Positions 27,576 to 31,991 of a stretch of 64,000 nucleotides of DNA are shown one piece after another. Position 1 is the first letter of the stretch. Each line of letters starts with the position of its first letter. The notes beneath the pieces are model-generated. The model searched no databases and was not told where the DNA came from. It saw only the letters and a list, made by a program, of their open reading frames with translations. The position numbers and the translations under genes are program-made. Source of the stretch: Methanomicrobiaceae archaeon (GTDB lineage Archaea > Halobacteriota > Methanomicrobia > Methanomicrobiales > Methanomicrobiaceae); contig JARVGI010000002.1 of NCBI GenBank assembly GCA_029762625.1, positions 312,772 to 376,771 on the forward strand, given 5' to 3'.

Positions 27576-28874
27576 ATGCGCGTCGGGATCGATGACACTG
27601 ATTCGCCGGAGGGCATGTGCACCACCTACCTTGGCGCGGTGCTGGCCCGGAGGCTCCGCCGGGAGGGGTGCCGGGTGAGCGAAGCCATCCTCGTGCGCCT
27701 GAATCCGAACGTGCCTCATAAGACGCGGGGGAATGCCGCCATCGCCCTTGAGGTGGAGGGCGATCCCGACCGGGTGTTCGCACTTGCCTGCGCCTGCGTG
27801 GAGGAGCTAGCGGATTGTTCCGCGGCAGAAACGAATCCCGGTGTGGTCGTCGCCGAACGCCCCCTCCCACCGGCGTTTTACCGACGGGCGGTCACCGGGT
27901 TCTGCACCACCGCGGAGGCGATCGCGCTTCTCGACGCCTGCGGTGCGCGCTCCCGCGGCTACAAGAACGGCCGCGGGCTCATCGGTGCGACGGCAGCGGT
28001 CAGTGCGGTATTTTCCGATACAACCTGTGAGCTGCTCGCCTATCGGAGCCACGAGGAGCGGGGCAGGCGGGTAGTCGACCGGGAGAGCGTCTTTTCCGCG
28101 GAGGACGCGACCTATCCCCATACATGGGATTCCGTGGACCGCGCAAACGATGTGGTCGTCTGCGTCCCCCACACGCCCGATCCGGTGCTGTTCGGGATCA
28201 GGGGGGAGAGCCCGGCGTGGGTGCATGCCGCCCGCGCGCATATCCGGTCGCAGGAGCCGGTGATCGAGCAGGCGTACCTGACCAACCAGGGCACCGATGC
28301 GCACCTCCTGGTTGGTACGATCGGGGCGATGGAGGAGGGGATGTCCTACCTCGTAACGGGGACGGTCGCCTCCCTCCCCCGGACGGGCCGGGGCGGCCAC
28401 GTGGCATTCGATCTCGCCGACGGCGGGCACGCGGTCCGCTGCATGGCATACGAGCCCACACGGGGGTTTCGCACCGTAGTGCGGCAGCTCGTGCCGGGGG
28501 ACGGGGTCGTGGTTGCGGGAAGCTTCCGGAGGGGGAGCGTGAACCTCGAAAAGCTGCGCGTGTGCAGCCTGCAGCCCGTGATCACCACCCGTCCGCCGGT
28601 ATGCGGGGCATGCGGGAGAAGGATGACCAGCGCAGGGTCGGGCAAGGGGTACAAGTGCCGGCACTGCGGGGCCCGGTCACTCCGGCCCGAGGTCTCCTGC
28701 GCCCGCCGCACGCTGTCGCCCGGCTGGTACGAAGTCCCGCCGTCCGCCCGGCGGCACCTGGCAAAGCCGCTCGTTCGGTTCACCCCCGCCGAGCTGGCGG
28801 GTGCGGAAGGCCGATACCTTATCGCTGATTGCGGCGAAACGGGTAGAGAGGAAACGGGGTCGCATCCATCATGA
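27576..28874 (+). CDS. tiaS: tRNA(Ile2) 2-agmatinylcytidine synthetase
   Basis: A 432-residue archaeal enzyme that attaches agmatine to cytidine 34 of the CAU-anticodon isoleucine tRNA, so that it reads AUA. The N-terminus MRVGIDDTDSPEGMCTTYL is the signature of the family; the central domain contains KNGRGLIGATAAV, the region used for ATP-dependent activation. An OB-fold and a zinc ribbon (CGACGRRM and YKCRHCG) close the protein. ATG 27576 starts the conserved sequence; ATG 27564 adds four residues. It overlaps dys by four bases. It is divergent from the COG1395 regulator. Confidence 0.92.
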   Translation: MRVGIDDTDSPEGMCTTYLGAVLARRLRREGCRVSEAILVRLNPNVPHKTRGNAAIALEVEGDPDRVFALACACVEELADCSAAETNPGVVVAERPLPPAFYRRAVTGFCTTAEAIALLDACGARSRGYKNGRGLIGATAAVSAVFSDTTCELLAYRSHEERGRRVVDRESVFSAEDATYPHTWDSVDRANDVVVCVPHTPDPVLFGIRGESPAWVHAARAHIRSQEPVIEQAYLTNQGTDAHLLVGTIGAMEEGMSYLVTGTVASLPRTGRGGHVAFDLADGGHAVRCMAYEPTRGFRTVVRQLVPGDGVVVAGSFRRGSVNLEKLRVCSLQPVITTRPPVCGACGRRMTSAGSGKGYKCRHCGARSLRPEVSCARRTLSPGWYEVPPSARRHLAKPLVRFTPAELAGAEGRYLIADCGETGREETGSHPS

Positions 28875-29806
28875 GTGTCGAATTCGGAGAGCCGGTCGAG
28901 CAGGTGCGCATCCGCCCCCGCATGACGGTGGGCGAGCTGGTGGAGGAGTTTGGAAAATCGGGCGCCTACAATGCGGGCGCACTGTGGAGTGCCGCCGCGT
29001 GCTACGAGGCGATGCTCCGGGATACGGAGGCGACCCGGTTCTTCGGGCTCGCGGGCGCAATGGTCCCCGGCGGAATGGGGGGGATAGTTTCCGACCTGAT
29101 CGAGCGGGGACATATCGATGTCCTCGTGTCCACGGGGGCAAACCTCACCCACGACATCATCGAGGCCATCGGGTGCCGCCACTACCACGGCACCGCGGAA
29201 TGCGATGACGTGGAACTGCACCTCGATGAGATCAACCGCATCTACGACGTCTATCTTCCCAACGAGGCGTTCGTGAATTTCGAGGAGTTCATGCAGGATG
29301 CCCTCGGGGAGCTGGGTCCGGGCAGCGTCATCTCGATCGCCGAGCTCCTCGCCCACCTCGGATCACGGCTTGCTACGGGCATCCTCGCGGCGGCGGCGCG
29401 GCACGGGATTCCCGTGTACTGTCCCGCGGTACAGGACTCCATGATCGGGCTGCAGTACTGGCTCTTCGACCAGACCGGGGATGTGTGCGTCAACGCCTTT
29501 GCGGACATGCACGGGCTCATGGACCGGTGCTTTTCGGCGACGCGTGCGGGCGCCCTGTTCGTGGGCGGCGGCGTGCCAAAGAACTATATCTTCCAGAGCA
29601 TGCTCATGACCCCGAACGGGTTCGACTACGCGGTGCAGCTCACCGGGGACAGGCCCGACCTCGGGGGCCTTTCCGGGGCGACGCTCGATGAAGCCAAATC
29701 ATGGGGGAAGGTGAATGAAGAGGGGCGCGCCGTGACCGTGTACGGCGATGCGTCCATCACGCTCCCCCTGCTCGTTGCCGCCGTACTGGAGAGGCTGGAA
29801 GCATGA
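28871..29806 (+). CDS. dys: deoxyhypusine synthase
   Basis: A 311-residue enzyme that transfers the aminobutyl group of spermidine, using NAD, to a lysine of aIF-5A to make deoxyhypusine. The catalytic lysine is in EAKSWGKVN; NAD-binding sequences include VSTGANLTHDIIEAIG and FVGGGVPKNYIFQS. Length is typical of archaeal type I enzymes. It overlaps tiaS and pyrF by four bases (ATGA) at each end, so the three genes are one translationally coupled operon. The aIF-5A substrate gene is outside the window. Confidence 0.93.
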   Translation: MSVEFGEPVEQVRIRPRMTVGELVEEFGKSGAYNAGALWSAAACYEAMLRDTEATRFFGLAGAMVPGGMGGIVSDLIERGHIDVLVSTGANLTHDIIEAIGCRHYHGTAECDDVELHLDEINRIYDVYLPNEAFVNFEEFMQDALGELGPGSVISIAELLAHLGSRLATGILAAAARHGIPVYCPAVQDSMIGLQYWLFDQTGDVCVNAFADMHGLMDRCFSATRAGALFVGGGVPKNYIFQSMLMTPNGFDYAVQLTGDRPDLGGLSGATLDEAKSWGKVNEEGRAVTVYGDASITLPLLVAAVLERLEA

Positions 29807-30438
29807 CCGAACTGATCCTCGCCCTGGATGTGACGGACCGCCGGCGTGCGTATGCCATCGCCTGCGCCTGCGCACCCCATATTGATTGCATCAAGATCGG
29901 CTACCCCCTGGTGCTCGCCGCCGGGCTCTCCGTCGCAGGAGATCTCGGCAGTCTCGGCCTTCCCCTCATCGCCGACTTCAAGGTGGCCGATATTCCCAAC
30001 ACCAACCGGCTTATTGCAGAAGAGGTCTTTTCCGCCGGGTTCTCCGCGCTGATCGCGCACGGGTTCGTCGGCACCGATTCGCTTGCGGCCTGCGTGGACG
30101 TTGCCCACGAAAACGGCGGGGAGTGCTACGTGGTTGCCGAGATGAGCCACCCCGGTGCGACGGAATTCTTCCACGGAGGGGTTGCCGAGCGGATTGCCGC
30201 GCTCGCCGCAGGGTGCGGGGCGGACGGGATCATCGCCCCCGCAACCCGCCCGGCTCGGATCTCGGCACTCCGCACCCTCATCGGCGAAAAAAAGATCTAC
30301 TCGCCGGGCGTGGGCGTGCAGGGAGGGGATGCCGCGGTGGTGGCGGCCCTCGTGGACGGGATGATCGTGGGGCGGTCCATCTACGAGGCCGCCGATCCGG
30401 CCGCGGCCGCCGCCGGCTATGCCGGATTCCGCCGATGA
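29803..30438 (+). CDS. pyrF: orotidine 5'-phosphate decarboxylase
   Basis: A 211-residue TIM-barrel enzyme making UMP from OMP, the last step of pyrimidine synthesis. The catalytic tetrad is visible: Lys in DCIKIGYPL and the motif IADFKVADIPNTN (D-x-K-x-x-D-I). The phosphate-binding end is SPGVGVQGGD and IVGRSIYEA. It is slightly short but complete, as in other archaeal PyrF proteins. It is the last gene of the tiaS-dys-pyrF run. Confidence 0.93.
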   Translation: MTELILALDVTDRRRAYAIACACAPHIDCIKIGYPLVLAAGLSVAGDLGSLGLPLIADFKVADIPNTNRLIAEEVFSAGFSALIAHGFVGTDSLAACVDVAHENGGECYVVAEMSHPGATEFFHGGVAERIAALAAGCGADGIIAPATRPARISALRTLIGEKKIYSPGVGVQGGDAAVVAALVDGMIVGRSIYEAADPAAAAAGYAGFRR

Positions 30439-30528
30439 TGAGTGAACCGTTTCCGAGCGCGTGATCGTCGTGCAATGACGAACCCTATGAGTCGACTGAG
30501 GCGGATTTCGCATGCCGGGATGTAAACC

Positions 30529-30537
30529 CTTAAATAA
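30529..30537 (+). promoter_or_regulatory. TATA-like element of the nrdD-tail/cbiZ operon
   Basis: CTTAAATAA lies 21-29 bases before ATG 30558, predicting a nearly leaderless transcript, although TGAGG at 30546-30550 also resembles a ribosome site. Confidence 0.4.
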
Positions 30538-30557
30538 CACAATCCTGAGGTATTATC

Positions 30558-30920
30558 ATGAACTGGACTCCTGAACAACTTGCGATTGCCCGGAAGTACA
30601 GGAAGCTCGAGGATATCCCGGTCGAGGACCGGCGGTACAAGTGCCACACCTGCCACCACATTGTCGATGAGGTCCCCTGTCCCTGCTGCGGTGAGACCCA
30701 TCTCGAGATCCTGTGCCCGCTCGATCACTGCCATTGCGCGCACCACATCATCGAGCGCATCGAGTACTGCCCCCTCTGCGGGCATGCGGTGTGCCCTGAG
30801 TGCGGGACGCACGATGTGAGCCAGGTGTCGCGCGTGACGGGCTATCTTGCGGACGTTGCCGGCTGGAACTCCGGAAAACAACAGGAATTAAAAGACAGAG
30901 TGCGATATTCTGTTGCATGA
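30558..30920 (+). CDS. stand-alone class III ribonucleotide reductase C-terminal (glycyl radical) protein
   Basis: A 120-residue protein whose last 50 residues match the C-terminus of anaerobic ribonucleotide reductase NrdD. The zinc knuckles CPLCGHAVCPECG are followed by SRVTGYLADVAGWNSGK, equivalent to the RVCGYL loop of E. coli NrdD that carries the radical glycine; here that glycine is residue 95. Upstream, residues 28-61 hold another cysteine/histidine cluster (CHTCHH, CPCCG, CHCAHH). The large NrdD catalytic barrel is absent and the ORF has its own promoter and start, so this is not a fragment. It could act like YfiD/GrcA, a spare radical domain, or as a zinc regulator. It overlaps cbiZ by four bases. 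Confidence 0.8.
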   Translation: MNWTPEQLAIARKYRKLEDIPVEDRRYKCHTCHHIVDEVPCPCCGETHLEILCPLDHCHCAHHIIERIEYCPLCGHAVCPECGTHDVSQVSRVTGYLADVAGWNSGKQQELKDRVRYSVA

Positions 30921-31798
30921 GATATTTCATCCGTGAGTCCACCCTTTTTCTCCGCGGGCCCATGAAGGCCGCAAGCACCGGAATTCACGGCGGCATCCGT
31001 CCTGTATCGACCATTTTCAACCAGACCGTCCCGAAGCATTTCGATCACCGGGACCCCATACGGCACCTCACCGCGGTGGCCGACCGGTACGGGTTTTCCC
31101 ACGACTTTTTCGGCATGCTGACGGCGGTGAACATGTCGTCCCTGTGCATCTTCCACTACGACTCCCTCACCACCTTCGTCACGGCGGGGGTGACCAACCC
31201 GAACCCCGAGGGGCCCAATACTATCAATATTATCGTCCATTCGAGGCAGGGGCTCAGCGATGGGGCGATGCTCGAGACGATCATCACTGCCACCGAGGCG
31301 AAGGCGAAGGCTTTGTTCGAGATGGGGTATGCATTCACCGGCACCACAACCGATGCCGTGGTGGTTGCCCACGAGGGCGAGGGTGAGGCGCACGAGTATG
31401 CCGGCACGCTCACCGACGTGGGAAGGAGGGTCTACGCGAGCGTCCAGTTCGGGGTGCAGCAGGCGCTCCTGCGGCACGAAGGCGAGACACCGCGATCCGA
31501 ACCCTCGCTGTTCATCTACAGCAGATACGGCGGCGATCGCTGGGTGGAGTGGTGTCCCCGAGACTGCCCGTACTATCCCTGCCATTTCGAAGGGCAGTGG
31601 TGCGATTTCTGTTACTGCCCGTTCTACCCGTGCGGGGACGAGGAGCTGGGCGGATGGGTGGCGAGCGCATCGGGGGGGGTGGTGTGGAGCTGCCAGCACT
31701 GCGACTTCATCCACCTGCCGCGCGTCGCGGAGTACCTGAAAACGTACCCGGAGGCGAGCCTCGAAGAGTTGAAGGCGCTTCAAAAAAAGACCGGATGA
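30917..31798 (+). CDS. cbiZ: adenosylcobinamide amidohydrolase with C-terminal cysteine-rich domain
   Basis: A 293-residue protein. Residues 1-215 are CbiZ, which removes the aminopropanol from adenosylcobinamide to give adenosylcobyric acid, letting archaea salvage incomplete corrinoids. Typical sequences are STGIHGGIRPVSTIFNQTVP, VTAGVTNPNPEGPNTIN and YAFTGTTTDAVVVAH. A Cys-rich small domain follows (about 218-270: WCPRDCPYYPCHF, WCDFCYCPFYPCGDEE and CQHCDFIHLP), a zinc-binding module (PF04071-like) known in fusions with corrinoid genes. The ATG overlaps the stop of the glycyl-radical gene, so the two are translated together. Confidence 0.92.
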   Translation: MRYFIRESTLFLRGPMKAASTGIHGGIRPVSTIFNQTVPKHFDHRDPIRHLTAVADRYGFSHDFFGMLTAVNMSSLCIFHYDSLTTFVTAGVTNPNPEGPNTINIIVHSRQGLSDGAMLETIITATEAKAKALFEMGYAFTGTTTDAVVVAHEGEGEAHEYAGTLTDVGRRVYASVQFGVQQALLRHEGETPRSEPSLFIYSRYGGDRWVEWCPRDCPYYPCHFEGQWCDFCYCPFYPCGDEELGGWVASASGGVVWSCQHCDFIHLPRVAEYLKTYPEASLEELKALQKKTG

Positions 31799-31799
31799 A

Positions 31800-31991
31800 T
31801 TATTTTTCAAGACCAAGCGCATCGGTGAGTTCGTCGAGTGGTATGCCGTGCGCCTGGGCGGCCTCTCTCAGCGTCTCCCCTCTCGCCAGTGCGCATCCCA
31901 GGCACCCCATACCGAACCGGAACAGGATATCCGCAGCTTCAGGTTTCTCCCTGAGGATCTGGTGAATCGTACTGTCTGCCGTAAGGGTCAT
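31800..31991 (-). CDS. DUF1858 domain protein
   Basis: A 63-residue protein that is just one DUF1858 domain: TADSTIHQILREKPEAADIL, then FGMGCLGCALARGETL with a CxxC pair, and an amphipathic end (IPLDELTDALG). The family often sits with redox enzymes such as hybrid cluster proteins and may handle iron-sulfur or sulfur chemistry. Here it abuts the 3' end of cbiZ on the opposite strand. Its own promoter is visible upstream on the minus strand (TTATATTTTT, near 32020). Confidence 0.82.
   Translation of the reverse strand: MTLTADSTIHQILREKPEAADILFRFGMGCLGCALARGETLREAAQAHGIPLDELTDALGLEK

Follow-up and report, generated by a model that had tools for sequence, protein, structure and literature searches.

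Can a glycyl-radical domain that is encoded apart from a catalytic barrel still serve a ribonucleotide reductase (RNR)? The question is raised by a small gene at positions 30558 to 30920 of a 64,000-nucleotide stretch of the genome of a Methanomicrobiaceae archaeon (assembly GCA_029762625.1, contig JARVGI010000002.1, positions 312,772 to 376,771 of the forward strand), referred to here as the window. The product of this gene, which we call the tail, resembles the radical domain of the class III enzyme NrdD. We consider it very probable that the tail serves a split, two-chain class III RNR as its small subunit and carries the radical, as suggested by comparison of its sequence with that of the single NrdD encoded elsewhere in the same genome. 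In NrdD in general, a radical S-adenosylmethionine (SAM) activase makes the glycyl radical, which is then passed to an active-site cysteine (for example, PMC4390871), and published descriptions of class III RNR give a homodimer whose catalytic chain itself bears the glycyl radical (table of PMC2795772; PMC9531940).

A stand-alone NrdD radical domain

A preliminary description of the DNA had proposed a stand-alone NrdD radical domain of 120 residues with zinc knuckles and a loop around Gly95 but no barrel, and profile searches bear this out. Residues 66 to 117 match positions 506 to 562 of Pfam PF13597 (NRDD; 54.1 bits, E = 1.5e-14, cut-off 26.2) and also positions 528 to 581 of NCBIfam TIGR02487, and the catalytic barrel is absent from the protein. 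Matches of the tail are to NrdD and zinc-ribbon families only, with none to pyruvate formate-lyase (PFL) or other glycyl radical enzyme families. The gene and its parts are as follows.

30558 to 30920, + strand: putative stand-alone class III RNR glycyl-radical subunit gene (tail); ATG start, 120 amino acids; orthologues throughout the order, ratio of nonsynonymous to synonymous substitution rates (dN/dS) about 0.085.
30642 to 30689, + strand: zinc-ribbon-like cluster of the N-terminal half, C29-x2-C32 ... C41-x2-C44; confined to the stand-alone family, invariant in 18 members of the order; putative metal binding.
30714 to 30743, + strand: middle motif C53-P-x-D ... C60-x-H62, characteristic of stand-alone tails; C53, C60 and H62 at least 90% conserved in A1; possible function in docking or folding.
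30768 to 30803, + strand: zinc-type site of four cysteines, C71-x2-C74 ... C79-x2-C82, the counterpart of the NrdD site; invariant in 45 of 45 aligned tails; putative zinc binding.
30828 to 30878, + strand: glycyl-radical loop S91-R-V-T-G95-Y ... W103-N-x-x-K107; S91, R92, T94, G95, Y96, W103, N104 and K107 invariant.

The radical loop SRVTGYLADVAGWNSGK occupies residues 91 to 107, with the Gly95 codon at 30840 to 30842, and aligns to the radical loop of Prevotella copri NrdD (8p23). Conservation of this glycine and its loop among homologues had been named beforehand as a point on which the proposal could fail. The loop residues listed above are, like the four cysteines, invariant in the 45 aligned stand-alone tails, and so is the stretch from Q109 to R114 (QELKDR). 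The four cysteines together with R-x-T-G-Y are found at 149 of 149 loci of the order (a count that includes some genomes twice), at 8 of 8 loci outside the order, and at 13 of 14 viral loci. The additional N-terminal Cys/His cluster of the preliminary description is likewise confirmed, with C29, C32, C41, C44, C53, C60, and H62 invariant in 18 diverse members of the order, and a related middle motif occurs in stand-alone tails outside the order.

Tail orthologues are full length and almost free of insertions and deletions across 34 genera, and comparison with three relatives gives a tail dN/dS of 0.084 to 0.087, indicating purifying selection. It is because of these orthologues and this selection that the open reading frame (ORF) is not regarded as a chance occurrence. 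Both conservation and dN/dS are as would be predicted for a working radical subunit and not for a relic.

The missing half in the same genome

A six-frame NRDD search of the source genome (2.2 Mb, 99.8% complete) returned only two matches over the cut-off, a barrel covering profile positions 1 to 510 and the tail covering positions 506 to 562. The sole NrdD barrel gene, which lies on a different contig from the tail, encodes 732 amino acids and ends in ...TRDLTVSLKQFTEYRPKKEHAGQLSMVDKRVKV before its stop codon, about 30 residues past the last conserved barrel stretch and with no zinc or glycine domain there. This NrdD scores 466.6 bits against TIGR02487 (cut-off 326), and its AlphaFold model, of moderate confidence, matches class III RNR structures (9d3x, E = 3e-18). 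Its barrel is 64 to 68% identical to those of the fused NrdDs of other Halobacteriota, with the finger-loop SCYQCC, NCPR, and other active-site stretches invariant in the alignment, and the source protein stops where the fused proteins run on into C-x2-C and SRVTGY. The activase NrdG2 is also present (TIGR02495, 161.8 bits, cut-off 131), an NrdH-like glutaredoxin gene directly precedes nrdD, and the genome has both class II and class III RNR.

Taken together, these matches indicate that a single class III RNR is present in the source genome, divided between two genes. All its components are there, with the glycine on a different chain. Barrel and radical domain are not carried by one polypeptide, the tail being encoded on another contig, and because the barrel stops at about position 510 and the tail lies apart from it we file the enzyme as a class III RNR variant and not as an ordinary NrdD. 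Lack of a class III activase in the host genome had been named beforehand as a second point on which a radical role could fail, and the activase is there. NrdD turns out to be tail-less throughout the order and fused in other Halobacteriota.

It had also been proposed that the small protein could be a spare part for NrdD, comparable to GrcA/YfiD; in such a role it would replace an NrdD radical tail damaged by oxygen. A precedent is known for PFL (PMC8683613, where spare parts for other glycyl radical enzymes are no more than speculation), and some other Halobacteriota, for which the proposal is a better fit, combine an intact fused NrdD with a stand-alone tail of the same family. In the source genome and in the whole order, however, NrdD has no tail that could be damaged and then replaced. 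With a tail-less protein as the only NrdD, the small protein is here the sole copy of the radical domain rather than a spare part, and we reject the latter role, as highly unlikely, for the source genome and as the sole role in the order. In the source organism the tail is most likely an obligatory radical-bearing subunit, as judged from these gene contents.

The split across Methanomicrobiales

The order was sampled with 150 Methanomicrobiales genomes, including Methanoculleus, Methanogenium, Methanomicrobium, Methanoregula, and Methanolinea. A tail-less NrdD together with a separate tail is found in about 117 of the 150, as counted from search tables, and all full-length NrdD barrels listed in the order end at profile position ~510 to 524. 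There is one separate tail per genome, nearly always full length and with 63 to 98% identity, and the same split is seen in single-contig genomes. About 5 genomes, all of them at most 85% complete, have a tail without an evident barrel, and 3 have a barrel without a tail. The remaining 25 have neither and all belong to one genus (g21). One Methanomicrobiaceae genome (L091, G001:C1:590703-592373) has an additional, distant fused NrdD-like protein of 569 amino acids ending in RVSGYLEVLDYFTTGKKNEVKKRRPNT.

NrdG2 co-occurs with the split enzyme across the order, and genus g21 is without a match of NrdG2 level, its best scores being 58 to 70 bits compared with at least 128 bits in 122 of the 125 other genomes. 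The same genus retains CbiZ, the product of the gene next to the tail in the window, and class II RNR (each in 11 of 11 genomes tested). The pattern of gene presence indicates that NrdD, tail, and NrdG2 were lost together in g21 and that CbiZ is outside that unit. In one draft genome (G018; 99% complete, 140 contigs), the split class III enzyme is the only RNR matched, with no match of class I or II. If this draft is complete, DNA synthesis there would depend on the split enzyme, making it essential. Class II RNR open frames fall into two length classes, one of ~554 to 614 amino acids in many genomes having the split class III enzyme (for example, L070:1276-2940) and one of ~734 to 785 amino acids, seen in other genomes as well as in every g21 genome tested.

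The distribution also bears on whether the two halves might be a relic or an assembly artefact, in which NrdD would be inactive or cut short by a frameshift and the tail would be a remnant. Class II RNR, present as a backup in most genomes, speaks for this, but the same split recurs in 34 genera, single-contig genomes among them, the catalytic residues of the barrel are invariant and the dN/dS of the tail is 0.085, the six-frame search of the source genome shows no other tail, and one genome seems to lack any other RNR. This explanation is extremely improbable. Truncation or frameshift of NrdD is rejected on the basis of that six-frame NRDD search and the order-wide conservation.

Many NrdD genes of the order (for example, in G004, G010, and G088) have frames of 1160 to 2000 amino acids with interrupted NRDD matches, which is consistent with one or two inteins. 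As such interruptions would be expected of inserted inteins, it could be imagined that the halves are joined after translation by split-intein trans-splicing. The intein-like frames are contiguous and internal, though, and the tail, at 119 to 120 amino acids, has no room for an intein half, while the end of NrdD is short and variable. We give trans-splicing next to no probability.

Tail and NrdD side by side in viruses

Scanning IMG/VR yielded 15 contigs. On two, of 127.7 kb and 135 kb, the tail gene adjoins a tail-less NrdD on the same strand, ~240 and ~190 nucleotides upstream of the NrdD frame, respectively. These viral NrdDs cover profile positions 1 to 513 and 1 to 518 and end in ...GYFAFTRDITISKNEYRWRRS and ...GYFAFTKDFTVCNNAYRKY. 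As far as gene context can tell, this adjacency is the most direct evidence that tail and NrdD are likely partners. On the 135-kb contig (3300044712_001062; L263:6433-7839), the tail and NrdD genes are followed by a small FeThRed_B-like protein and a deoxycytidine monophosphate (dCMP) deaminase, genes that probably form a viral cluster for the supply of deoxynucleoside triphosphates (dNTPs).

A further contig has a fused NrdD and no separate tail, and the other 12 have a tail without a barrel, although such contigs could be incomplete and two of these 12 seem to be near-copies. Matches in a collection of phage GenBank records are all below 60% identity, those listed lying in NrdD-annotated genes or in unannotated records. 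In one viral tail (L254:4001-4318; 3300005325_000006), an in-frame insertion of ~33 nucleotides stands exactly after the radical glycine codon, giving SRVTG-SKSKSCASLHGN-LQDVSGW; GGA codons are found at both bounds of the insertion, and Asn replaces the usual Tyr.

A model for a two-chain enzyme

For the two chains it can be hypothesized that NrdG2, as the radical-SAM activase, would abstract hydrogen from Gly95 of the small subunit, which may fold around the zinc-type site C71/C74/C79/C82. The loop of the small subunit would insert into the barrel of the tail-less NrdD beside the finger-loop cysteine, which would then become a thiyl radical and start nucleotide reduction, with electrons probably supplied by the NrdH-like glutaredoxin. 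We propose that the N-terminal Cys/His half may act as a docking module in place of the lost covalent link. The model builds on the observed gene structure, the missing NrdD tail, conservation, co-occurrence, co-loss, and the adjacent genes on two viral contigs; in it we infer radical formation, complex formation, the docking role, and the identity of the activase.

Several observations weigh against a two-chain enzyme. The structure predicted for the tail alone has a moderate predicted local distance difference test score (pLDDT 77) and no significant match in the PDB, and tail and nrdD genes are far apart in the cellular genomes read. The co-loss in g21 is a single evolutionary event and counts once. 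Class II RNR is also present in most host genomes, so that the class III enzyme may be dispensable.

Several known systems come close to this arrangement. Fused NrdDs, as in Methanosarcinales, P. copri (8p23), and Thermotoga maritima (4coi), are alike in the barrel (the 64 to 68% identity to fused Halobacteriota NrdDs given above), the finger-loop cysteines, the type of cysteine site, and the R-x-T-G-Y loop, but here NrdD ends before the radical domain, which resides on a separate chain of 120 amino acids with an added N-terminal Cys/His half. GrcA/YfiD of Escherichia coli and Y06I of phage T4 are also small, stand-alone glycyl-radical domains and also virus-borne, yet they repair PFL, which normally has its own radical domain, whereas the partner enzyme here has none and the tail is an NrdD-family domain with a zinc-type site. 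The split class II RNR NrdJa/NrdJb of Pseudomonas aeruginosa (PMC4520616) likewise has an RNR C-terminal domain moved to a second chain; being class II, it has no glycyl radical, and the second chain bears a different C-terminal domain. Class I RNR, with its alpha and beta chains, similarly stores the radical on a separate subunit, but that subunit is unrelated (ferritin-like, tyrosyl/metal), while the separate chain here is homologous to a normally fused domain. A search of the open-access literature, including RNR reviews and database papers (PMC4390871, PMC9531940, PMC9669993, PMC3019208, PMC2795772, PMC4493059, and PMC8463856), turned up no account of a class III RNR split in this way, and we provisionally regard such an enzyme as unreported.

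A natural two-chain version would let the radical domain be activated, mutated, isotopically labelled, and exchanged independently of the barrel, and it touches on two questions, the access of NrdG to the glycine and the docking of the loop. It also matters for annotation, where a tail-less NrdD looks truncated and a tail looks like a fragment, while both are probably parts of one enzyme.

Stand-alone tails elsewhere in Halobacteriota

Among 296 genomes sampled from the phylum, the typical state outside the order is a fused NrdD (profile positions 1 to 562). An intact fused NrdD and an extra stand-alone tail occur together in some of these, with at least 6 such genomes in genus g59, two in f23, and one each in g45 and f32. 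The extra tails are open frames of 88 to 194 amino acids in which both the radical loop and a middle Cys/His motif of related form are present. Loci of this kind include L133-L136 and L138-L141 (genomes G261, G238, G375, G305, G357, G191, G182, and G176). Their coexistence with an intact fused NrdD makes these tails candidates for GrcA-like NrdD spare parts.

In a tree of the 50-residue radical domain, a data set of few columns, stand-alone and fused tails lie on opposite sides of a branch with 99% support in the Shimodaira-Hasegawa approximate likelihood ratio test (SH-aLRT). The stand-alone tail family seems to be older than the split. Fused barrels group at 100% in the barrel tree, whose root is a very distant paralogue and untrustworthy for direction. 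The series from fused, through fused plus stand-alone, to split offers a testable path from spare part to essential subunit. It could further be speculated, as a tentative idea to which we give somewhat less than even chances, that the tails are a mobile, exchangeable radical subunit. They would serve as spare parts for an intact NrdD in some Methanosarcinales relatives and would have become obligatory in Methanomicrobiales after NrdD lost its tail; viruses of these archaea would carry them alone, to commandeer the tail-less NrdD of the host for dNTPs, or with both halves as a two-gene enzyme. Virus-borne tails suggest control of dNTP supply in the infection of methanogens.

cbiZ and the gene neighbourhood

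Around the tail gene, the following features are found.

29803 to 30438, + strand: pyrF (orotidine-5'-phosphate decarboxylase); conserved upstream neighbour, context only.
30530 to 30537, + strand: TATA-like box (TTAAATAA), 28 nucleotides 5' of the tail ATG; sequence pattern only.
30917 to 30920, + strand: ATGA stop/start overlap of tail and cbiZ; tail stop TGA at 30918 to 30920, cbiZ ATG at 30917.
30917 to 31798, + strand: cbiZ (adenosylcobinamide amidohydrolase), with PF04071 as its C-terminal domain; a conserved neighbour that probably does not belong to the RNR.

The overlap of the tail stop with the start of cbiZ had been recognized in the preliminary description, and the next ORF is indeed CbiZ, with a PF01955 match over the cut-off (150 bits, E = 1e-43) fused to the cysteine-rich PF04071 domain. 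The pair is kept in 66 of 67 genomes checked, with the exact ATGA in 53 of the 67, two duplicate loci having been removed from this overlap count. Among 31 orthologues, most have an A/T-rich box at about -28 to -32 before the tail ATG. A transcript with almost no leader seems to begin at the tail gene itself, probably with cbiZ as the second of its two genes.

The earlier suggestion of a zinc sensor linking corrinoid status to nucleotide reduction has to be weighed at this point. Such a zinc or redox sensor or regulator would use the fold of the radical domain without a radical, and the conserved tail-cbiZ pair, the extra Cys/His cluster, and the presence of both class II and class III RNR would all suit it. 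The radical glycine and loop would then have no need to be invariant, however; genus g21, which lost class III RNR, still has CbiZ but no tail; a search for a cobalamin riboswitch or other Rfam RNA family near the locus gave no match; and on two viral contigs the partner gene of the tail is NrdD and not cbiZ. Of the suggested corrinoid link, the conserved gene pair stands and the sensor finds no specific support, so that we consider a sensor very unlikely. As CbiZ survives alone in g21 and the tail adjoins NrdD on the two viral contigs, we treat the tail-cbiZ pairing as linkage, with probable co-transcription, rather than mechanism. CbiZ is rejected as a functional partner of the tail on account of its persistence in the genus that lost class III RNR.

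The gene order in the window from 28871 to 31991 is deoxyhypusine synthase, pyrF, tail, cbiZ, and DUF1858 (opposite strand), and it is conserved across much of Methanomicrobiales. In the genus without class III RNR, cbiZ lies in another genomic context.
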